From: Nonomuraea rhodomycinica
GTDB taxonomy: Bacteria > Actinomycetota > Actinomycetes > Streptosporangiales > Streptosporangiaceae
Reading direction: 5' to 3'
Assembly (NCBI RefSeq): GCF_013363995.1
Contig: NZ_JABWGO010000001.1
Location: 1,187,222-1,251,221 of the forward strand
DNA: 64,000 bases
In this document: positions 1 through 10,501 of the stretch, piece by piece
Numbering within the stretch: the stretch's first letter is position 1
Layout: each line of letters begins with the position of its first letter
The notes under the pieces: model-generated
What the model was told of the DNA's origin: nothing
Databases searched by the model: none
What the model saw: only the letters and a program-made list of their open reading frames with translations
Made by a program: the position numbers and the translations under genes

Positions 1-44
1 CCCTCGGCCCCCAGCTACAAACCCCCCCGCGTCCTCTCCGCCCC

Positions 45-64
45 GGGGGGGGGGTGGCCCCCCC
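45..64. terminator. G/C homopolymer hairpin past the RiPP operon
   Basis: A run of ten G (45-54) is followed by TGG and seven C (58-64), allowing a 7-bp G:C stem with a 3-nt loop. It lies just beyond the end of the minus-strand short peptide ORF, where a terminator would be expected. No U tract follows. Such homopolymers are also prone to sequencing error, so the base count may not be exact. Confidence 0.3.
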
Positions 65-121
65 TCGGGGTGCGGGGCGCGGGGCCGGGCCGGGGGGCCC
101 GCCACGGCTGCCGGAGATGGA

Positions 122-187
122 CTACCAGATGTACCAGGCCTGCCGGTTGATCCGGCGGCCGGTGACGCGGCGCAGCAGCTTCCTCAT
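122..187 (-). CDS. Atropopeptide-type RiPP precursor (21 aa)
   Basis: This 21-codon ORF reads leader MRKLLRRVTGRRINRQ followed by AWYIW and a TAG stop. The ATG at 187 has a perfect nine-base Shine-Dalgarno, AGGAGGTGA (193-201), five bases upstream. The leader is strongly basic (seven Arg/Lys) and the C-terminal five residues are almost all aromatic. AWYIW equals the first five residues of the tryptorubin A core AWYIWY, the founding atropopeptide, whose aromatic side chains are cross-linked by one cytochrome P450. A P450 gene ends 17 nt upstream on the same strand, so the pair forms a two-gene operon. The product is inferred to be a cross-linked pentapeptide released after leader removal. No protease or transporter gene is visible beside it. 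The missing terminal Tyr relative to tryptorubin A is seen directly: TAG follows the Trp codon. Confidence 0.82.
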   Translation of the reverse strand: MRKLLRRVTGRRINRQAWYIW

Positions 188-192
188 GGAGT

Positions 193-201
193 TCACCTCC
201 T
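193..201 (-). promoter_or_regulatory. Perfect ribosome binding site of the short precursor
   Basis: AGGAGGTGA is fully complementary to the usual actinobacterial 16S rRNA 3' end and sits 5 nt before the ATG at 187, starting 3 nt after the P450 stop codon (205-207). This is the main evidence that the 21-codon ORF is translated, probably coupled to P450 translation. Confidence 0.8.
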
Positions 202-204
202 TTC

Positions 205-1395
205 TCAACGAGCGAAGGGGGTCCGGTGCAGTTGGAACGGAGGAGGGGTGATGATGCCCGCCACGTGGGGCTGTCCGCGACCGCCGCGCACTTCAAGACG
301 GGCGCTGTCGGTCACGGCGGCGAGCAGGTCGCAGGCCAGGTCGCGGGCGACGACGGCGCCGGCGCAGGTGAACGGGCCGCCGCCGAAGGGCAGGTAGGGC
401 CCGCGGGGGCCGGGGCCGTCCCACCTGCCGGGCCGGAACCGGGTGGCCTCGGGCCAGTGCCGTTCGTCGCGGTGCAGCAGATAGGCGCAGACCGACACGC
501 TGTCCCCCGGCTCCAGCCGCACGCCGCCGACCTGATGGGCGCGCAGTACGGGGCGGCCCAGCAGCCACGCCACCGGCCACAGCCGCAGCGACTCCCGTAC
601 GGCCGACTCCGCGGGCACGGCCGCCAGGTCGACGCCGTCGGTCGCGGCTGCCAGCAGCGCCCAGGCGACCACGTGGCCCACCGGCGCCACCGAGGTTCGG
701 AAGAGCAGCAGATACACCTGGGCGAGGTGCGCGGCAGGCGTATCGGGCGGGGCGGCCTCGAGTACGGCGTCCAGCAGGTCGCCCTGCCCGCCGGGCCGCG
801 GGCCGGCCCGGCGGGCGAGTACCTCGCCGGTGAGCGCCCGCACCACGCGTGCCCACAGGGCCCGCCGCATCACGCTCGCCAGCTGGCCGCTGGGACGGAT
901 CAGGACATCGTTCCACACCACCTGCTCCATCAGCTCCCGCAAGAGCGGCGGGCTGTCCGGCCGCAGCAGCACCTCGGCCAGGAACCGGTACGCGGCGGCC
1001 CGCCCGGCCGAAGGCCACTCGCTGACCTCTCCCAGCTCCGCCACCACGGCGGGCAGCCGCTCCCGATGCGCGGCCAGATGGGCGCGTAACGTCGCGCGGG
1101 CCGCCCGCCCGATCGCGACCTGCGTCTCCCGCGGCTCCAGCCGGCCGCCGCGGACGTGGAAGAAGTCCGACACGTCGTCGTAGTGGCCCTCATCGTCGTG
1201 CAGCACCCGCAGGGCCTCCGCCGGGTCGGCCACGCACAGCGACCCGTCGTCAGGCAACCGGAACACCGGGCCCCGCTCGCGGGCCGCGTGCTCGACGAAC
1301 CCCAGGGGGTCCCGCCGATACCACCGCGCCGCCCCGTGCGGCCACGGCCGTGTCCCGCCGGGAGCGGCCCGATCCGGTTCTCCGACCGTCGTCAT
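205..1395 (-). CDS. Cytochrome P450, candidate atropopeptide cross-linking enzyme
   Basis: From the ATG at 1395 the protein is about 396 aa, a normal bacterial P450 length. The K-helix ExxR is ESLR (Glu about residue 268) and the haem-binding motif is FGGGPFTCAG with the ligand Cys near residue 344. The I-helix region (LFRTSVAPVGHVVAW) lacks the usual acid-Thr oxygen-activation pair, as in some P450s doing phenol or indole coupling rather than hydroxylation. AGGTGGGA lies just before the ATG; in-frame starts upstream (ATG 1413, GTG 1437) have weaker sites. The gene is followed by the short AWYIW peptide. Inferred role: C-C and C-N biaryl cross-linking of that peptide. A redox partner is not encoded nearby. 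A generic P450 is the alternative if the peptide is not expressed. Confidence 0.85.
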   Translation of the reverse strand: MTTVGEPDRAAPGGTRPWPHGAARWYRRDPLGFVEHAARERGPVFRLPDDGSLCVADPAEALRVLHDDEGHYDDVSDFFHVRGGRLEPRETQVAIGRAARATLRAHLAAHRERLPAVVAELGEVSEWPSAGRAAAYRFLAEVLLRPDSPPLLRELMEQVVWNDVLIRPSGQLASVMRRALWARVVRALTGEVLARRAGPRPGGQGDLLDAVLEAAPPDTPAAHLAQVYLLLFRTSVAPVGHVVAWALLAAATDGVDLAAVPAESAVRESLRLWPVAWLLGRPVLRAHQVGGVRLEPGDSVSVCAYLLHRDERHWPEATRFRPGRWDGPGPRGPYLPFGGGPFTCAGAVVARDLACDLLAAVTDSARLEVRGGRGQPHVAGIITPPPFQLHRTPFAR

Positions 1396-1562
1396 TCCCA
1401 CCTGCCCATGCATCCGTGATCTCGGGTGTACGCGCACGCCCGCCGCCTGCCGGTACGCGGTGACGGCGGCAAGGACGACACCAAATCAGGAATAGTGCCG
1501 GTTAATAAGTGAACGGTGAGGAGTATCGCCACTGAACTTACAGAATCGGAGGAATTTCGGCA

Positions 1563-1655
1563 ATGAATGCACTGTGTCATAATGTCATTGCCGGCCGTGT
1601 GGAAGATGGCGCTATATCTCCGAGAAAGCGCCGCCGGGCGCTTTCTCGGAGGTGA
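1563..1655 (+). CDS. Possible 30-aa ORF ending in a hairpin
   Basis: An ATG at 1563 is preceded by GGAGGA about nine bases upstream and opens a 30-codon ORF beginning MNALCHNVIAGRVEDG and ending in a basic tail (PRKRRRALSRR). The end overlaps the 15-bp inverted repeat at 1618-1651, which encodes much of that tail. Nothing recognisable. It may be chance. Confidence 0.2.
   Translation: MNALCHNVIAGRVEDGAISPRKRRRALSRR
1618..1651. terminator. 15-bp perfect hairpin
   Basis: Arms 1618-1632 and 1637-1651 are perfectly complementary with a 4-nt loop. A second, smaller hairpin (GTGAAAT / ATTTCAC, 1652-1668, loop GGC) follows directly. No long U tract is present, so a terminator, attenuator or protein-binding site is possible. 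Confidence 0.45.
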
Positions 1656-1701
1656 AATGGCATTTCACGGTGAGTGCACATGAGGGCTTCCAGGACCCCG
1701 C

Positions 1702-2291
1702 GTGGGTTACGGTGCCGGCATGCTGCTGCGCCTGCTGTGGAAGCCTCTGCCCGAGTCGTGGCCGGCAACAGCGCCCGAGCGGCTTACTGGGCTGCGCGGC
1801 CTGGTCGCCCGGCTGCGGGCTATGGCCGCGGGTGCACCGCAGCGCGACGATGTCGAGCGGCGGGTGCGGCGGGCGGCGACGCAGGCGATCGTCCGCGAGG
1901 CCTTCCAGCAGACGGTCGCCGAGCAGGACAGCGAGCATCGCGGGCCGGCCGAGTTCGCCGATGCGTGGAAGGCTCGCCTGGCTTCGGGTGGAGTCTGTAC
2001 GCCGCGGCCAGCCAGGCCAGATCGGAGACGATCGCGCGTGCCAACGCCACGCCCAGCCGCCGTCGAGGAGCGGACGACGCTCCGACCGTGTCGTATGAGT
2101 TCTCCATCGCCGCCGATGGCGACTACTCACTCGGGCGCGTCCAGTACGCGATCTGCAAGCACTGCGGCGTCGGCCTACTGAAAAAGATCAGCTTCTCGCC
2201 CGAGTGGCACTGCTGCGGGTTCGGCACTCTTGCCCTGCGCGAACCGGAGACCCGCCACCCGGGCGACCAGCACCCCTGCCCGCACTTCTGA
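1702..2291 (+). pseudogene. Frameshifted GNAT-like protein remnant
   Basis: The first half reads as coding in one frame (from the ATG at 1702, including RLLWKPLPESWPATAPERL). Coding character then moves to another frame after about 2070, which carries VQYAICKHCGVGLLKKISFS and WHCCGFGTLALREPETRHPG and ends in CPHF at 2291. That second part resembles the C-terminal region of actinobacterial GNAT-fold proteins with a CxxC knuckle, including the usual -PHF end, but part of the expected acetyl-CoA-binding segment is missing. One or more frameshifts plus an internal deletion are inferred. It is probably non-functional. Confidence 0.5.
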
Positions 2292-2658
2292 GCGTTCGAT
2301 CCGCCTCTCCACCAGGCACCGTTGATCTCTTGACGAAGGGCAGCGTGTCTGCCGGGGGCAGCCGGTGCAGCGCCGCTCGCCCAGACGCCGGGTCGCGGCC
2401 GCGACTCGGACGAGGAGCGGCAGCCCCCAGGCCTGGCGCAGCCGGACGAGGTCATCGGAGGTCGGCCACGCCACGATCGACGACGTGGAGATCCGGGTGG
2501 CGGCGCTGATCCGCAGGTGCGATCTCGCCGGACTCGACGCCACGCTGAGCCGCACAGTCAGCGCGTGCCGGCTGGATGATCGCAACCGCCGCAAGGCGCC
2601 CGGACCACTGCAAGCCGGGATCAATTCCCGCGCAAGGCGCCGCCCTTAGCGTCGCAGC
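2292..2658. other. Gap without a convincing gene
   Basis: About 370 bases separate the GNAT-like remnant from the secreted protein gene. One reading frame (2365-2649, plus strand) contains a helix-like stretch, VEIRVAALIRRCDLAGLDA, that could be a gene relic, but it has no ribosome binding site and I do not recognise it. Confidence 0.4.
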
Positions 2659-4615: not shown

Positions 4616-5056
4616 TCAGGCGTTCTCGGCCGTCTTCTTCAGGCGCTCCAGCCAGGCCGTCAGCGAGGCATCGAGCGCGGCGGCCATGCTCTCGGCATCG
4701 GCGCGGATGGGGTCGCCGTCCCAGGACTCCTCGGTGTGCACCTGGACGATGCCGTCGGCCTCGGTGAACGTCCACTGGTGGATCCCGTCGATGCCGTGCG
4801 CGGGGCCGCCCCAGAGGATGCGGTACGGCTCCTCGACCGCGTACACGGTGGAGGCGATCTCCATCCCGAACGTGGTCCAGTGGAAGACCGAGCCGGGGAC
4901 CAGAGGGCCGTCGGCGGAGGCGGCGGTGATGTCGCTCTGCCAGGAGGTCCAGCCGGACACGTCCGTGTGCAGGTCCCAGACCCGCCGCAGAGGCGCGTCG
5001 ATGGTGATGGAGTGGCGGGCGACGACGGGGGCGGAGGTGTCGATTCCGGTGATCAC
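4616..5056 (-). CDS. SRPBCC (START-like) family protein
   Basis: A 146-aa protein starting at GTG 5056, which overlaps the stop codon of the carotenoid oxygenase gene by four bases (GTGA). The pattern HSITIDAPLRRVWDLHTDVSGW, then VPGSVFHWTTFGMEI and a C-terminal helix rich in Ala and Leu, is that of the polyketide cyclase/START-like SRPBCC fold with a hydrophobic ligand cavity. Tight coupling suggests it binds, carries or modifies an isoprenoid or apocarotenoid connected with the oxygenase. No catalytic residues can be assigned. Confidence 0.75.
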   Translation of the reverse strand: MITGIDTSAPVVARHSITIDAPLRRVWDLHTDVSGWTSWQSDITAASADGPLVPGSVFHWTTFGMEIASTVYAVEEPYRILWGGPAHGIDGIHQWTFTEADGIVQVHTEESWDGDPIRADAESMAAALDASLTAWLERLKKTAENA

Positions 5057-6390
5057 TTGTTGTCCTCGATCCAGTGGCCGTGGATGCCGGCGGGCACCCT
5101 GCGGGGGAGTTCCACGATGGCGATGGGGTCGCGTGCGATGTCGGTGGCGTCGAGCACGAGCAGCTGGGAGGCGTCGGCGTGCAGGTCGCTGACGATGGTG
5201 AGCAGGTAGCCGTCGTCCTCGCCGGTCGCGCCCTCGGCGGGGACGAACACGGCCTCGCCCGGCATGCGGTGCTCGCCGTGTGACAGCAGCTGCCGGCGTC
5301 CGGTGGCGGTGTCGAACTTGATGGTGTGGTAGCCGGACAGGCCCGCGCCGGGGAAGGCGACGGCGTAGCTGTAGCGGTTGGTCGCGCCGGTGAGGTCGTC
5401 GTTGATGGAGGGGAACTCGGTGGCGAGGTCGTCCAGGGGCTCGTCGGTGGCCTTGCCGGTGGCGGGGTCGAGGATCCAGCGGTGGAGGGTCGAGCCCGCG
5501 TCGGGGCTGACGCCGTACCCCGGCGCGCCGATCCACCACTTCCAGGAGCTCTCCCACGACGACCGGTCGTAGCGCGGGCCTTCGACGACGACGCGTCCGT
5601 GCCGGTCGACGTAGGCGTTGGTGACGTGCAGGAGCGCGGCCTGCTCGACCTCGAACCAGGTCACCCGCGACGGCCCGGTACGCGGCATGACCCCGATCCT
5701 GAACGGCACGTCGTCGTGCCACCGGTACGGGATGCCCGAGTGCTCGGCATGGTCGAAGACCACCGGCGAGTTGAGGAACACGACGTGCTCGCGCGTGATG
5801 GCGAAGTCGTGCATGAGCGACGGGCCCGACCCGTCGACGACCTCCGAGCGGACGATCTCCCCGGAGGCGGAGGCGACGTGGTAGGTCAGGTAGGGCGGGA
5901 ACGGGCTGTAGCTGTAGAAGTGCAGCTCGCCGGTCACCGGGTCCTCCTTGGGGTGAGCGGTCATCGCGCTGGTGAGCTTGCCGCCGAAGTCGTACACGCC
6001 GACGGTGTCGAGGTCGGCGGTGACCTCCCAGGGCAGGTTGGCCTCCTGGAGGGCGAGGTAGCGACCGCCGTGGAAGATGATGTTGGTGGCGGCGGCGCTG
6101 ACCTCCAGCTCGGTGCCGGTGAACGGCACGCCGTCCAGGAACGGGGTGCGTACCCAGCGGTTGCGGTACCACTCGGCGCGCCCGCCGGACAGCCGCACGC
6201 CGTGGATCATGCCCTCGCCCCTGAACCAGTGGCTGGGGGTGATGCCCGGCTTGGGGTTGTGGCCGTTGCGGAAGTAGCGGCCGTTCAGCTCCGGCGGCAG
6301 CGTGCCGTGCACGGTGAGCTCGCGAGCAGTGATCTCATCGGTTACCGGGGTGAAATGGCCGGTGAGGTACGGCTTGGGCAGTTCCGTCAT
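5053..6390 (-). CDS. Carotenoid cleavage oxygenase
   Basis: A 445-aa member of the carotenoid/stilbene cleavage dioxygenase family, seven-bladed propellers with a non-haem Fe(II) held by four His. Candidate ligands appear in order: TAHPKEDP, PSLMHDFAIT, LLHVTNAYV and near the C-terminus PAGIHGHWIE. The motif RYFRNGHNP near residue 40 is also typical. The ATG at 6390 shares one base with the stop codon of the upstream transporter gene (TGATG). No carotenoid biosynthesis genes are nearby, so the substrate may be scavenged, made elsewhere, or a non-carotenoid such as a stilbene. Confidence 0.9.
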   Translation of the reverse strand: MTELPKPYLTGHFTPVTDEITARELTVHGTLPPELNGRYFRNGHNPKPGITPSHWFRGEGMIHGVRLSGGRAEWYRNRWVRTPFLDGVPFTGTELEVSAAATNIIFHGGRYLALQEANLPWEVTADLDTVGVYDFGGKLTSAMTAHPKEDPVTGELHFYSYSPFPPYLTYHVASASGEIVRSEVVDGSGPSLMHDFAITREHVVFLNSPVVFDHAEHSGIPYRWHDDVPFRIGVMPRTGPSRVTWFEVEQAALLHVTNAYVDRHGRVVVEGPRYDRSSWESSWKWWIGAPGYGVSPDAGSTLHRWILDPATGKATDEPLDDLATEFPSINDDLTGATNRYSYAVAFPGAGLSGYHTIKFDTATGRRQLLSHGEHRMPGEAVFVPAEGATGEDDGYLLTIVSDLHADASQLLVLDATDIARDPIAIVELPRRVPAGIHGHWIEDNK

Positions 6391-7730
6391 CAAAGGTCGT
6401 CCTTTCGGATCGTGACAAGGGTGATCAATACGGTCAGGAGGGTGATGAGGGCGGCGGCTACGAACGTTCCGCGGTAGCCGCCGGTGAGCGAGACGGTGGT
6501 CAGGACGGCGAGGCCGATCGCGCCGCCGATCTGCCGGGTCGCGTTGACCAGCCCACCCGCGAGACCGCTGTCGGCGGCCGGCACGCCCGCCGCCGACAGC
6601 GCGGTGAGCTGGACGAACGCCGCTCCCAGCCCGGCGCCGATAAGCACCGAGGGGCCGAGCAGGGCGTTCAGGAAGGTCCCGTCGGACGGGGCCCGCGCCA
6701 GCCAGGCGAGCCCGGCGGCGAGCAGGAGCAGCCCGCCCGCCAGCACGACCCGGCCAGACAACCGCCGGGTCAGCCGGGGAGTCGCCCAGGAGGCCAGGGT
6801 GATCATCAGCGCGAGCGGGAGCTGGGTCAGCCCCGCCTCCATCGGCGTGTAACCGAGGATGCGCTGCTGGTAGAGCGGCAGGAAGAAGAACAGGCCGAGC
6901 CAGACCGCGCCCAGCAACGCCATCAGCACATTGGACGCGGCGACCGAGCCGACCTTGAAGACGCGCGGGGGCACCAGGGGGTCGGCCGACCGGCGTTGCA
7001 GGTGGAGGAAGAGGCCGAGCAGCAGCATCCCCGCGGCCACGGCGGGCCAGACGCCGCCGGACACCCCGTACGTGAGGGCGGTCAGCCCCAGGGTGACGGC
7101 GAGCGCGCCCGGCAGGTCGAGACGGCCGCCGCGTGGCCGGTCGGCGGGCAGCAGCCGCCAGGTGGCCACCAGCACGGCCACGGCCACCGGGACCATGACC
7201 CAGAACACCGAGCGCCAGCCGTAGGTGTCGCTGAGCAGACCGCCGAGCAGCACGCCCGCCGCCCCTCCGACGCCGGAGACAGCGCCCCACACGCCGAGCG
7301 CGGCGCCGCGTCGTGGCCCGTCGTGGAACAGGGTCAGCACCATGGCCAGCGCGGTGGGCGCGAGCAGCGCCGCGCCGACGCCCTGGACGGCTCTGGCCGC
7401 GATGAGCGTGACGACGTCGTCCGCAAGCGCCGCGCCGAGCGAGGAGGCGGCGAACAGGGCAGTACCGAGCAGGAAGACGCGGCGCAGCCCGTACACGTCA
7501 CCGGAGCGGCCGCCGAGCAGCAACAGCGAGCCGAAGGCCAGCACGTAGGCGTTGACCACCCACGACAGCCCGGCGGGATCGAGCCCGAGCCCGGTGCGCA
7601 GCTGCGGCAGTGCGACGTTCACGATCGAGGTGCTCAGCACCACGAGGAACTGAGCCGTGGCGAGGACCGCCAGCGGCGTCCAGCCCGTCGTGGTGGTGGC
7701 CGGGGAGACGGAAGCGCTGCTCATGGCCAT
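6390..7730 (-). CDS. MFS exporter, DHA2 (EmrB/QacA) type
   Basis: A 446-aa membrane protein with many hydrophobic segments. Motif A is GGRSGDVYGLRRV between TM2 and TM3 and antiporter motif C is GAVSGVGGAAGVLLGG in TM5. Family members are proton-driven drug or metabolite exporters. It is the first gene of an operon with the carotenoid oxygenase and SRPBCC genes and diverges from the large LuxR regulator. It may export the cleavage product or an inducing toxic compound. ATG codons at 7730 and 7724 are both possible starts. Confidence 0.88.
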   Translation of the reverse strand: MAMSSASVSPATTTTGWTPLAVLATAQFLVVLSTSIVNVALPQLRTGLGLDPAGLSWVVNAYVLAFGSLLLLGGRSGDVYGLRRVFLLGTALFAASSLGAALADDVVTLIAARAVQGVGAALLAPTALAMVLTLFHDGPRRGAALGVWGAVSGVGGAAGVLLGGLLSDTYGWRSVFWVMVPVAVAVLVATWRLLPADRPRGGRLDLPGALAVTLGLTALTYGVSGGVWPAVAAGMLLLGLFLHLQRRSADPLVPPRVFKVGSVAASNVLMALLGAVWLGLFFFLPLYQQRILGYTPMEAGLTQLPLALMITLASWATPRLTRRLSGRVVLAGGLLLLAAGLAWLARAPSDGTFLNALLGPSVLIGAGLGAAFVQLTALSAAGVPAADSGLAGGLVNATRQIGGAIGLAVLTTVSLTGGYRGTFVAAALITLLTVLITLVTIRKDDL

Positions 7731-7834: not shown

Positions 7835-10501
7835 ATGGATGCATCGCTGGTCGGACGACAAGAAGAGATCGCACGCGTGGACGCGCTGCTCGACGCGGCC
7901 CGGCAGGGGCAAGGCGGAGCCCTGGTCCTGCGCGGCGAGCCCGGCATCGGCAAGACCTCATTGCTGCGGCACGCGGAACAGGCGGCAGGCGACTTCCTGG
8001 TCATGCGGGCCTTCGGCGCGGAGTTCGAGATGGAGCTGCCGTTCGCGGTCCTGCACCAGCTCTGCGCGCCGATCCTGAGCAACGTGACGGCGCTGCCCGT
8101 CCCCCACCGCAAGGCGTTGGAGATCGCCTTCGGTCTGGACACCGGCACCCCCGACCCCTTCCTGGTCGGCGTCGCGACCCTCGGCCTGCTGATCGAGGTC
8201 GCCCCGGAACGTCCGCTGCTCTGCCTGGTCGACGACGCGCAGTGGCTCGACCACGCCTCGGCCAGGGCGCTGGCCTTCCTGGCCCGCAGGGTCGCCGGCG
8301 AGCGGGTGGCCCTGCTGCTGTCGGTACGCGAGCCGTACCGGCTTCCCGAGTTCGACAAGCTGCCGAGCCTGACACTCAAGGGCTTGGGCGAGCTCGATGC
8401 CCGCGCGCTGCTGGCAGCCGCGATCCGCGCCCCGCTGGACGAGCGCGTACGCGACCGCATCCTCGCCGAAGCCCGCGGCAACCCGCTGGCGCTGCTTGAG
8501 CTGCCCAGGAGCGCCGGCCTGGCCGGGATGGCCGGCGGTTTCGCCCTGCCTCCGTCCGCGCCGGGCGTGATCGAGCAGAGCTTCCGTGCCCGGCTGGAGC
8601 TACTGTCGCCGCAGGCCCGGCTGCTGCTCACCGTCGCTGCGACCGACCCGGTCGGTGATCCGGGGCTGCTGTGGCGGGCGGCCGAACTCCTGGGCATCGA
8701 GCCGTCGGCGAGCACCGAGGCCTCCGCGCTGGTCGAGTTCGGCACCAGGATCCGCTTCAGCCATCCCCTCGCCAGGTCGGCCGCCTACCGCGCCGCCTCG
8801 GCGGACGACCGGCGACGGGCGCACGAGGCGCTGGCCGCGGTGACCGACCCCGCCGCGGACCCCGACCGGCTGGCCTGGCACCGCGCCGAGGCCAGCACCG
8901 GCCCCGACGAGGAGGTCGCGGCCGAGCTGGAACGGTCGGCGGCCCGCGCCCAGGCGAGGGGCGGCGTGGCCGCCGCCGCGGCCTTCCTGGAACGGTCCGC
9001 CGCGCTCACCCTCACCCCCGATCTCCGGACCGAGCGTGTGCTCGCCGCCGCCCAGGCCAAGCTGTCGGTCGGCGCGTACGACGTGGCCGCCGAGCTCCTC
9101 ACCGCCGCCGAGACCGCCCCGCTCGACCAGCGGCAACGGGCCAGGATCGACCTGCTGCACGGGAAGCTGTCGTTCGCCCGGCGCCGGGGCGGCGAGGGGC
9201 CCACGACGTACCTGCTGAGCGCGGCCGCCCGGCTGGCCGATCTCGATCCGGCTTGGTCACGGGCCTGCTATCTGGACGCGATGGAGACCGGCATCCTGGT
9301 CGGCGGGCTCGGTCCGGTGGCGGCGGCGGCCCGCGAGGCCCCGCCCGCGCCTCAGCCGCCCTCCAGTGCCGACGCCGTCCTGGACGGCCTGGTCACGCTG
9401 GTCACCGACGGGCACCTGGCCGCGGCCCCCGTGCTCGGGCCGGTCGTCGGGAACGCGGGCGACGAGGTGTGGGCCCGCTGGCCGTCGATGGGCTTCATGC
9501 TGGCCGTGGAGCTGTGGGACCACGACGCCCTGCACGGCGTCCCCGCCCGCGTCGTCGCGGCCGGGCGCGAATCCGGCTCGTTCCACCTGCTGCCGATCGG
9601 GCTCGCGATGCTGGCCACGGCCTCCGTGCACGCGGGCGACTTCGGCGCCGCCACGGAGATGATCTCCGAGGAGGAGGCCATCGCCGCGGCCACCGGCGCC
9701 GCGCCGCTGGTCTACCCGCGCCTCCACCTGGCCGCCATGCGCGGCCGCCGCGAGGAGGCGGTCAAGCTGTTCGACAGCGTGCTCGCGGCGAGCCAGCGGA
9801 TGAGCCTCAGCGTCCAGTGGGCGACGAGCGTGCTCAACAACGGACTGGCCGACTACCGGGCGGCGCTGGAGGCCGCCCGGCAGGCCGTCGCGCACGGCGA
9901 CCTCGGATTGTCCGGGCTGGCGCTGCCCGAGCTGGTCGAGGCTGCCGTACGCTGCGGCGAGACCGAGCTGGCCGCCTCTGCCCTGCGTACGCTCTCCGAA
10001 CGCACCCGAGCCGGCAGGCAGGCGTGGGGCCTCGGCGTCGAGGCGTACTCCCGCGCCCTGGTCACCGAGGACGAGAACGCCTACCACGAGGCCGTCGAAC
10101 ACCTCGACGCCACCCCGATGGCGATCTACCGCGCCCGCGCGCACCTGCTGTACGGAGAGTCACTGCGCCGTCAGGGACGGCGGCGCGAGGCCCGCGAGCG
10201 GCTGCGCACGGCCCATGAGCTGCTGTCCGACCTCGGCGCGCAGGCGTTCGCCGACCGCGCGGCGGCTGAGCTGCGCGCCACCGGCGAGCACGCGAGAAGC
10301 CGCTCCTCGCAGGCGTCGGACCAGCTCACGCTGCAGGAGCTGCACATCGCCCGGCTGGTCGCCGACGGTGCCAGCTCCAAGGAGGTGGCGGCCAAGCTGT
10401 TCCTCAGCCCACGCACGGTGGACGCGCACCTGCGCAACATCTTCCGTAAGCTCGGCCTCACCTCGCGCAGGCAGCTGAAAGACCTCCCCGGCATCCGCTA
10501 G
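7835..10501 (+). CDS. LAL-family LuxR regulator
   Basis: This 888-aa protein has the architecture of large ATP-binding LuxR (LAL/MalT-like) regulators. The Walker A motif is GEPGIGKTSLL near residue 35 and Walker B LCLVDDAQWLD near 130. A long helical, TPR-like middle follows, and a C-terminal LuxR helix-turn-helix ends the protein (LTLQELHIARLVADGASSKE ... SPRTVDAHLRNIFRKLGL). GGAAGGA precedes the ATG. Such regulators need ATP and often an inducer bound by the middle domain. Divergent orientation makes the MFS/carotenoid oxygenase operon the likely target. Confidence 0.92.
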   Translation: MDASLVGRQEEIARVDALLDAARQGQGGALVLRGEPGIGKTSLLRHAEQAAGDFLVMRAFGAEFEMELPFAVLHQLCAPILSNVTALPVPHRKALEIAFGLDTGTPDPFLVGVATLGLLIEVAPERPLLCLVDDAQWLDHASARALAFLARRVAGERVALLLSVREPYRLPEFDKLPSLTLKGLGELDARALLAAAIRAPLDERVRDRILAEARGNPLALLELPRSAGLAGMAGGFALPPSAPGVIEQSFRARLELLSPQARLLLTVAATDPVGDPGLLWRAAELLGIEPSASTEASALVEFGTRIRFSHPLARSAAYRAASADDRRRAHEALAAVTDPAADPDRLAWHRAEASTGPDEEVAAELERSAARAQARGGVAAAAAFLERSAALTLTPDLRTERVLAAAQAKLSVGAYDVAAELLTAAETAPLDQRQRARIDLLHGKLSFARRRGGEGPTTYLLSAAARLADLDPAWSRACYLDAMETGILVGGLGPVAAAAREAPPAPQPPSSADAVLDGLVTLVTDGHLAAAPVLGPVVGNAGDEVWARWPSMGFMLAVELWDHDALHGVPARVVAAGRESGSFHLLPIGLAMLATASVHAGDFGAATEMISEEEAIAAATGAAPLVYPRLHLAAMRGRREEAVKLFDSVLAASQRMSLSVQWATSVLNNGLADYRAALEAARQAVAHGDLGLSGLALPELVEAAVRCGETELAASALRTLSERTRAGRQAWGLGVEAYSRALVTEDENAYHEAVEHLDATPMAIYRARAHLLYGESLRRQGRRREARERLRTAHELLSDLGAQAFADRAAAELRATGEHARSRSSQASDQLTLQELHIARLVADGASSKEVAAKLFLSPRTVDAHLRNIFRKLGLTSRRQLKDLPGIR

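Follow-up and report, generated by a model that had tools for sequence, protein, structure and literature searches.

Does a peptide that shares its last five residues with the start of the tryptorubin core also share its family and its chemistry? The question is raised by a locus at the edge of the window, the term used here for the whole stretch of 64,000 nucleotides (nt) of Nonomuraea rhodomycinica DNA that was analyzed, in which a cytochrome P450 gene is followed by an open reading frame (ORF) of 21 codons ending in AWYIW. An earlier note, made from the letters of the window, had read the pair as a minimal locus for a tryptorubin-type atropopeptide, one of the ribosomally synthesized and post-translationally modified peptides (RiPPs). 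Comparison with other genomes suggests instead a conserved locus of P450, precursor and methyltransferase in soil actinobacteria around Nonomuraea and Streptosporangium, in which the P450 probably joins Trp2 and Trp5 by a staple, the leader would be cut away and the new N-terminus is predicted to be methylated.

Conservation of the locus

The reading frame, the Shine-Dalgarno sequence, the distance of 17 nt from the P450 gene and the terminal AWYIW were all given correctly in the earlier note (Table 1), and its picture of a RiPP locus with a P450 and a tiny basic precursor is borne out by conservation in relatives. An order-wide protein search with the P450 returned 29 matches in 27 of 345 genomes, with near-full-length relatives at 75–100% identity in 16 genomes (N. 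rhodomycinica itself included). A separate search at the DNA level, for the pattern NRQAWx[IV]W followed by a stop codon, picked out 16 of 342 genomes from the order, with one match in each, just behind a P450 gene, and the two sets of 16 genomes are identical. Twenty-six family loci were compared, of which ten are second copies from the same genome, leaving the 16 distinct loci to which the counts below refer. All 16 keep the order that had been proposed for the window, with a precursor of 21 codons placed after the P450; it begins 5–64 nt past the P450 stop, starts with ATG (14 loci) or GTG (2 loci), and keeps the ribosome site GGAGGTG throughout. Ten of the genomes are also present in the named collection, where the carriers are Nonomuraea roseoviolacea, N. 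indica, N. montanisoli, N. jabiensis and N. spiralis, together with Streptosporangium sp. KLBMP 9127, S. minutum, S. saharense, S. canum and Bailinhaonella thermotolerans.

The remaining 13 order-wide matches are either partial or do not exceed 53% identity, 11 genomes carrying such weaker matches alone, and they were taken to be generic P450s. When a script looked for aromatic-rich ORF ends behind these genes, a frame was readable at 11 of the 13 loci; one (L036) has two aromatic-ended ORFs, unlike the NRQAWx[IV]W family, and the other ten have none. A phylum-wide P450 search (396 genomes, E up to 1e-25) matched the N. rhodomycinica genome alone.

In a codon alignment of the family precursors, the leader follows the consensus MRKLLRRVTGRR[IV]NRQ with few changes, K3, R6, R7, V8, T9, R11, R12, N14, R15 and Q16 being invariant. 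The core reads A-W-[F/Y/H/R/W]-[I/V]-W, with Ala1, Trp2 and Trp5 unchanged in every locus and position 3 occupied by Phe in nine, His in three, Tyr in two, and Arg and Trp in one each, which amounts to at least seven changes when mapped onto the P450 tree (using the 13 rows whose core is known, one Streptomyces among them). Every precursor stops directly after Trp5, using TAG in 11 loci, TAA in four and TGA in one, and because three different stop codons are found at the same place this end of the core is real and old. The remark in the earlier note that the window core lacks a terminal Tyr was thus misleading, and a strain-specific loss of that residue is rejected. The precursor codons of the window are not in doubt, the peptide being identical to that of N. 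roseoviolacea, and the 27-nt core pattern occurs once in the window and in none of 100 shuffles. The locus shares with the cyptide superfamily, RiPPs whose aryl links are made by P450s, a P450 of its own that is genetically linked to a precursor with an aromatic end. Its best reading is a P450-modified (cyptide-type) RiPP family, and it is very probable, judging by sequence, that the P450 and the 21-codon ORF form a pair of enzyme and precursor.

The locus is not limited to two genes as had been supposed, since a class I methyltransferase, beyond the edge of the window in N. rhodomycinica, lies directly behind the precursor in 15 of the 16 loci, S. saharense (core AWRIW) being the single exception. 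It starts 63–109 nt past the precursor stop in 13 of these 15 loci; in N. rhodomycinica the distance is 197 nt across a scaffold gap, and in L033 there is no clear start. Among the matches listed, 27 relatives at 75–98% identity, mostly from the same genera, form a tight clade with it, and next come partial or shortened forms and then Streptomyces proteins at 44–45%.

Proposed modification of the core

Position 3 varies and Trp2 and Trp5 never do, which suggests that a conserved bridge would use the two Trp residues and not Tyr3. Arg and Phe, in particular, are likely to be poor candidates for a conserved bridge partner, and a tryptorubin-like bridge between Trp and Tyr is not a family feature because Tyr3 is replaced in 14 of the 16 loci. 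A staple between Trp2 and Trp5, made by the P450, is a likely outcome on these grounds, and position 3 would then be free to vary because it lies in the ring but is unbonded.

In the proposed pathway, the basic leader MRKLLRRVTGRR[IV]NRQ would dock on the P450 and thread the C-terminal core toward the heme, where a single two-electron oxidation would join the two indoles, probably through a C-N bond as made by ScaB on WFIW and WYIW. Host proteases would then cut before Ala1, releasing AWYIW or WYIW; a host protease is assumed because the loci showed no recurrent protease gene. As the last step the methyltransferase would cap the new N-terminus, which fits the invariant Ala1 and could block the loss of the N-terminal Ala that has been proposed for tryptorubins. 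By analogy with other peptides, methylation of the product N-terminus has about an even chance of being correct, with the methylated atom a guess. Somewhat more tentative is the broader proposal that a P450 of a separate clade, outside the atropopeptides, independently reached a Trp-x-x-Trp staple on a core that ends at the second Trp, with a dedicated N-methyltransferase and a free ring position.

Several observations weigh against this reading. The methyltransferase gives a nearly full-length match to the daptide methyltransferase family NF041820, but at 44 bits this is far below the cut-off of 175, and its matches among solved structures carry broad names (methyltransferase, SAM-dependent methyltransferase, CalS10, N-methyltransferase). 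No methyltransferase was found in approximately 1.4 kb behind the precursor of the Streptomyces locus L053; since it is missing from S. saharense as well, the enzyme is not essential. Methyltransferases are also among the frequent neighbors of atropopeptide P450s (PMC11450843), so that the presence of one sets nothing apart by itself. The variants among the precursor codons comprise nine synonymous and 11 amino-acid changes, a weak test because overall DNA conservation is high. Finally, where the link lies, how many links form (with a loss of 2, 4 or 6 H) and which atom is methylated are all matters of prediction.

The link is also where one of the rival explanations differs, by which the locus would be a P450-RiPP pair that forms some other bond, such as one from the Trp2 indole to a backbone nitrogen, or two links per core. 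On similar cores, the P450s of atropopeptides form multiple links of differing types (PMC11450843), and with a P450 of another clade regiochemistry is not transferable. This explanation is nevertheless unlikely, as Trp2 and Trp5 are the sole invariant aromatic residues and WxxW cores give Trp-Trp C-N products with ScaB (PMC12352619).

Relationship to tryptorubin-type atropopeptides

Atropopeptides are defined by a class P450, a KSLK leader motif and Trp at core position 2 (PMC11450843). Loci of the tryptorubin type (AWYIWY followed by a stop) were found for comparison in eight of 295 Streptomyces genomes; all eight precursors contain KSLK, and in the four loci that were read out the P450 lies downstream of the precursor. 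A KSLK-type motif (KSLK, RSLK, ESLK, KSRK, KPLK or PSLK) is absent from all 16 family leaders, whereas Trp at core position 2 is present in all 16, if the core starts at Ala17. The window precursor gave no match to the NCBIfam tryptorubin family NF038372 at E up to 10, a search in which the HMMER filters may drop weak matches, and two tryptorubin-type precursors that were scanned scored 60.5 and 55.8 bits (cut-off 33).

The class-defining P450 is absent, as judged by identity and phylogeny and not by AtropoFinder, with ScaB outside the tree. Identity of the window P450 to two tryptorubin-type P450s is 23.4 and 27.6%, and to two generic P450s 23.6 and 29.0%. A first tree of 67 rows held 14 of the 16 family loci (L011 and L020 left out), seven of the eight tryptorubin-type loci (L066 left out), 14 Streptomyces relatives, 20 protein relatives, 11 generic P450s and the solved structure 9ulw, and was reduced to 59 rows by dropping two long generic P450s and six near relatives of kept rows. 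Maximum likelihood on these 59 rows places the seven tryptorubin-type P450s in a clade of their own (100/100), whose branch measures 2.3 changes per column, and the AWx[IV]W-family P450s in a separate clade (100/99 against the named groups). A joint clade of the two is rejected (approximately unbiased test, p-AU 7.2e-10). Both groups do lie on one side of the branch leading to nine generic P450s (99/96), and both I-helices read APV; because of these two shared traits the groups may have a remote common origin as peptide P450s.

The suggestion that the locus encodes a true atropopeptide, in which the three tryptorubin-type bridges (Trp-Trp, Trp-Tyr and Trp-backbone) would be laid on a tryptorubin core minus its last Tyr, therefore has little left to recommend it. 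The core does equal residues 1–5 of the tryptorubin core, Tyr6 of tryptorubin lies outside the bicycle (PMC11450843), and the APV I-helix and the placing opposite the generic P450s speak in its favor. Set against these are the leaders free of KSLK, the missing family match, P450 identities no higher than those to two generic enzymes, the rejected joint clade, and Phe, His, Arg or Trp in place of Tyr3, and with all of these together a tryptorubin-type product is very unlikely. Membership of the atropopeptides is rejected, two of the three defining features being absent and NF038372 giving no match. Of the comparisons that the earlier note had proposed, the one with tryptorubin-type P450s failed to group the enzymes, while the one with relatives found the short ORF to be conserved.

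An intergenic hairpin and the assembly edge

Between precursor and methyltransferase, a stem of 13 bp is common to 15 aligned loci, with 98.5% of cells paired compared with 32–49% in slid controls. The alignment omits the N. rhodomycinica locus, where the sequence is poor, and the start of the L015 row was moved 19 nt onward manually. Of the 13 pairs, one is CG in eight and UA in seven of the 15 loci, one further pair has a single double change, and six never vary. Four loci were folded, with z-scores between -2.7 and -6.5. The observed number of cells paired, number of cells with a double change and covariation score were each reached in none of 500 shuffles; the other two measures, pairs in which both sides change and further pair types, do not stand out, as 28 of 500 and 500 of 500 shuffles, respectively, did as well. 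Rfam at gathering scores gave no match in 1.8 kb of L009. As for a role, the obvious guesses are that the hairpin shields the precursor mRNA or causes partial termination.

That the short ORF is instead a regulatory leader peptide, its Trp codons and the hairpin forming an attenuator of the methyltransferase gene, would suit the succession of an ORF with two Trp codons, a strong conserved hairpin and a methyltransferase, but is most improbable given that leader residues are conserved beyond the Trp codons and position 3 changes identity, that ORF and hairpin persist in S. saharense despite the missing methyltransferase, that the sequences inspected have no T run after the stem, and that in other clades of this P450 the corresponding place is taken by a short ORF rich in aromatic residues, the hyalucidin precursor family included.

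In N. rhodomycinica, a scaffold gap of 10 N directly precedes the first base of the window. Approximately 110 extra bases (N included) separate precursor and methyltransferase in comparison with the relatives, and long runs of G and of C lie in window positions 1–105. The contig end at the window edge is probably a matter of poor sequence over a strong hairpin.

Table 1. Features of the P450-precursor-methyltransferase locus in window coordinates.
Feature	Position	Strand	Details
Cytochrome P450, predicted cross-linking enzyme	205..1395	minus	ORF of 396 aa from ATG at 1395, TGA at 207-205; Pfam PF00067
P450-precursor spacer	188..204	minus	17 nt; Shine-Dalgarno AAAGGAGGTG at 203-194, 6 nt ahead of ATG
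Precursor peptide gene	122..187	minus	MRKLLRRVTGRRINRQAWYIW; 21 codons plus stop, 66 bp; ATG 187-185, TAG 124-122
Basic leader	140..187	minus	MRKLLRRVTGRRINRQ; no KSLK-type motif
Core codons AWYIW	125..139	minus	Trp2 and Trp5 invariant, position 3 variable (16 loci)
Precursor-methyltransferase intergenic stretch	1..121	minus	Poor sequence beside scaffold gap; 13-bp hairpin here in relatives
Class I S-adenosylmethionine (SAM) methyltransferase, 259 aa	-855..-76 (L062:9145-9924), outside window	minus	Pfam PF13649, 1.8e-15

The P450 and neighboring genes

The window P450 matches Pfam p450 at 1e-18 and has the heme motif FGGGPFTCAG, with the heme Cys, and ESLR as its ExxR motif. Its I-helix reads SVAPVGHV, without ETT, a weak mark seeing that ETT is present in just two of nine generic P450 rows. 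Among its protein relatives are 26 at 72–93% identity (P0001–P0026), named as Nonomuraea, Streptosporangium, Actinomadura or Bailinhaonella. Its AlphaFold model (pLDDT, the predicted local distance difference test, 86.5) has a P450 fold, and structure searches with this model returned generic P450 folds, with no description of a RiPP P450 among the best 50 matches of each. The solved structure closest in sequence is 9ulw, named just 'Cytochrome P450' and absent from the structure-search matches shown; the literature titles listed for 9ulw were unrelated. More distant relatives at 35–44% identity (P0038–P0071, e.g., P0040 and P0051) come from Streptomyces, Kitasatospora, Thermoanaerobaculia and metagenomes, and some of these fall near 9ulw in the P450 tree.

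Upstream of the P450, at window positions ~1480–1560, a block TTCTGTAAATTCAGTGGCGATACTCC...TTCACTTATTAACC is well conserved in five Nonomuraea loci (L009, L010, L012, L020 and L025) and is a possible promoter, with no sigma-70 match in the window copy. An inverted repeat, ctccgagaaagcgcc/ggcgctttctcggag, was spotted by eye at ~1618–1652 and has no T run. A promoter and terminator scan of window positions 1–2600 returned no matches.

Besides the P450 and the methyltransferase, no protein family recurs in more than three of the 11 longer loci, and no protease was seen tied to the locus; this comparison used a simple gene caller of our own with ORFs of at least 80 codons, which missed at least one likely gene. 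An RPE65-type carotenoid oxygenase frame (window 5053–7290, minus strand) was not picked up by the caller and hence stands outside the comparison. A major facilitator superfamily (MFS) transporter frame (6390–7730, minus strand) has no match in the other ten loci compared, and a LuxR-type AAA regulator frame (7835–10501, plus strand) has a match in one of them.

Relatives in Streptomyces

A profile of the family P450 found 14 P450s in 12 of 295 Streptomyces genomes, each with a short ORF of aromatic-rich end lying -8 to +27 nt from the P450 stop, in a filtered view, as the scripts kept aromatic-rich ends only. One of these loci, L053, has a P450 that is 54% identical and a precursor, MRKFIRRLQDVTAKQAWRIW, ending in AWRIW. 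The other ORFs end in YLYHHI (six), WYWY (four), YWEP[ND]VWL (two) and WFRAS (one). One YLYHHI-type peptide that was scanned scored 41.3 bits, over the cut-off (35 bits) of NF053510, the NCBIfam family of hyalucidin A precursors, in which no match to the window precursor was listed. Loci of the WYWY and YWEP[ND]VWL types are closer than the hyalucidin type to the window family in the P450 tree, and on sequence grounds the window family is one branch of a wider group with a P450 followed by a precursor, of which hyalucidin is the named member.

The WYWY loci (L054–L057, four Streptomyces loci) have a P450 followed by the peptide MAA[ST]MRRIF[GS]NKP[AS]RRWYWY, another pair of P450 and precursor; the one scanned had no NCBIfam match. 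In L058, L061 and L059, the P450 heme motif is FSAGPF(T/S)CAG and the peptides end in YWEP[ND]VWL or WFRAS. The WFRAS locus (L059) is the least convincing, with an in-frame TGA inside the P450 match.

Significance and comparison with known systems

No description of the AWx[IV]W family was found in the literature searched, in which three surveys (Nam 2023, He 2023, Liu 2024) are represented second-hand only. Liu 2024 reportedly catalogs 1057 clusters under 11 categories (PMC12299652), and the family may be among them without a name. The locus serves as a warning that a core match such as AWYIW is insufficient by itself to assign a locus to a RiPP family. If the Trp-Trp link is correct, two distinct P450 clades working with different leaders would arrive at one and the same strained staple, which would allow specialists to study what determines regiochemistry among P450s that staple peptides; the ring position, being variable (F, Y, H, R or W), would be nature's own substrate library. 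With a precursor of 21 residues, a C-terminal core and natural Arg, His, Phe, Tyr and Trp ring variants, the enzyme is a handy candidate for making cyclic-peptide libraries.

Tryptorubin-type loci (tryA-tryB) resemble the window locus in having one P450, a tiny precursor and a core starting with AWYIW, but differ in the KSLK leader, the NF038372 match, the P450 clade and a core that continues to Tyr6. The first-characterized clusters of this type consist of two genes only, whereas the window family mostly adds a methyltransferase. Nearer in P450 sequence is the hyalucidin A type, in which a short precursor also follows the P450 at once and the P450 (37.5% identical in L049) belongs to a neighboring clade, but the precursor belongs to NF053510 and ends in FWYLYHHI. 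Going by the title of a paper, hyalucidin A is reportedly a product of tandem P450 catalysis.

The biarylitide myxarylin likewise comes from a P450, a tiny precursor and a methyltransferase, and its N-terminal methylation is the last step and protects the N-terminus (PMC12951456); unlike the window locus it has a Tyr-His link and a myxobacterial source. Biarylitide precursors consist of five residues (PMC13417212), encoded by an 18-bp gene, compared with 21 residues and 66 bp with the stop codon in the window. Methylation of an N-terminal Ala is known from CypM in cypemycin (PMC11285071).

For the proposed link itself, cihunamide B and strecintide 839 have a bond from Trp N1 to Trp C7' (PMC13250620); the cihunamides and strecintide 839 resemble the window proposal in a P450-made biaryl link between two Trp residues. 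Bitryptides are defined by xWxxWx and a KSLK leader (PMC11450843). The xWxxW spacing is found in the AWx[IV]W cores of all 16 loci, but none of them has a KSLK leader or any residue beyond the second Trp. The closest products are scabrirubin (WFIW) and its WYIW analogue CB-1, in which ScaB makes a Trp-Trp C-N bond (PMC11450843, PMC12352619). The value computed for WYIW minus 2 H is 665.3082, and the m/z reported for CB-1 is 665.3083 (PMC12352619). ScaB, compared here by description, is an enzyme of the KSLK atropopeptides whose core TWFIWYS is trimmed at both ends, whereas the window core ends at Trp by itself. Scabrirubin and CB-1 nevertheless correspond to the ends of the family cores AWFIW and AWYIW, and AWFIW is the commonest core of the family.

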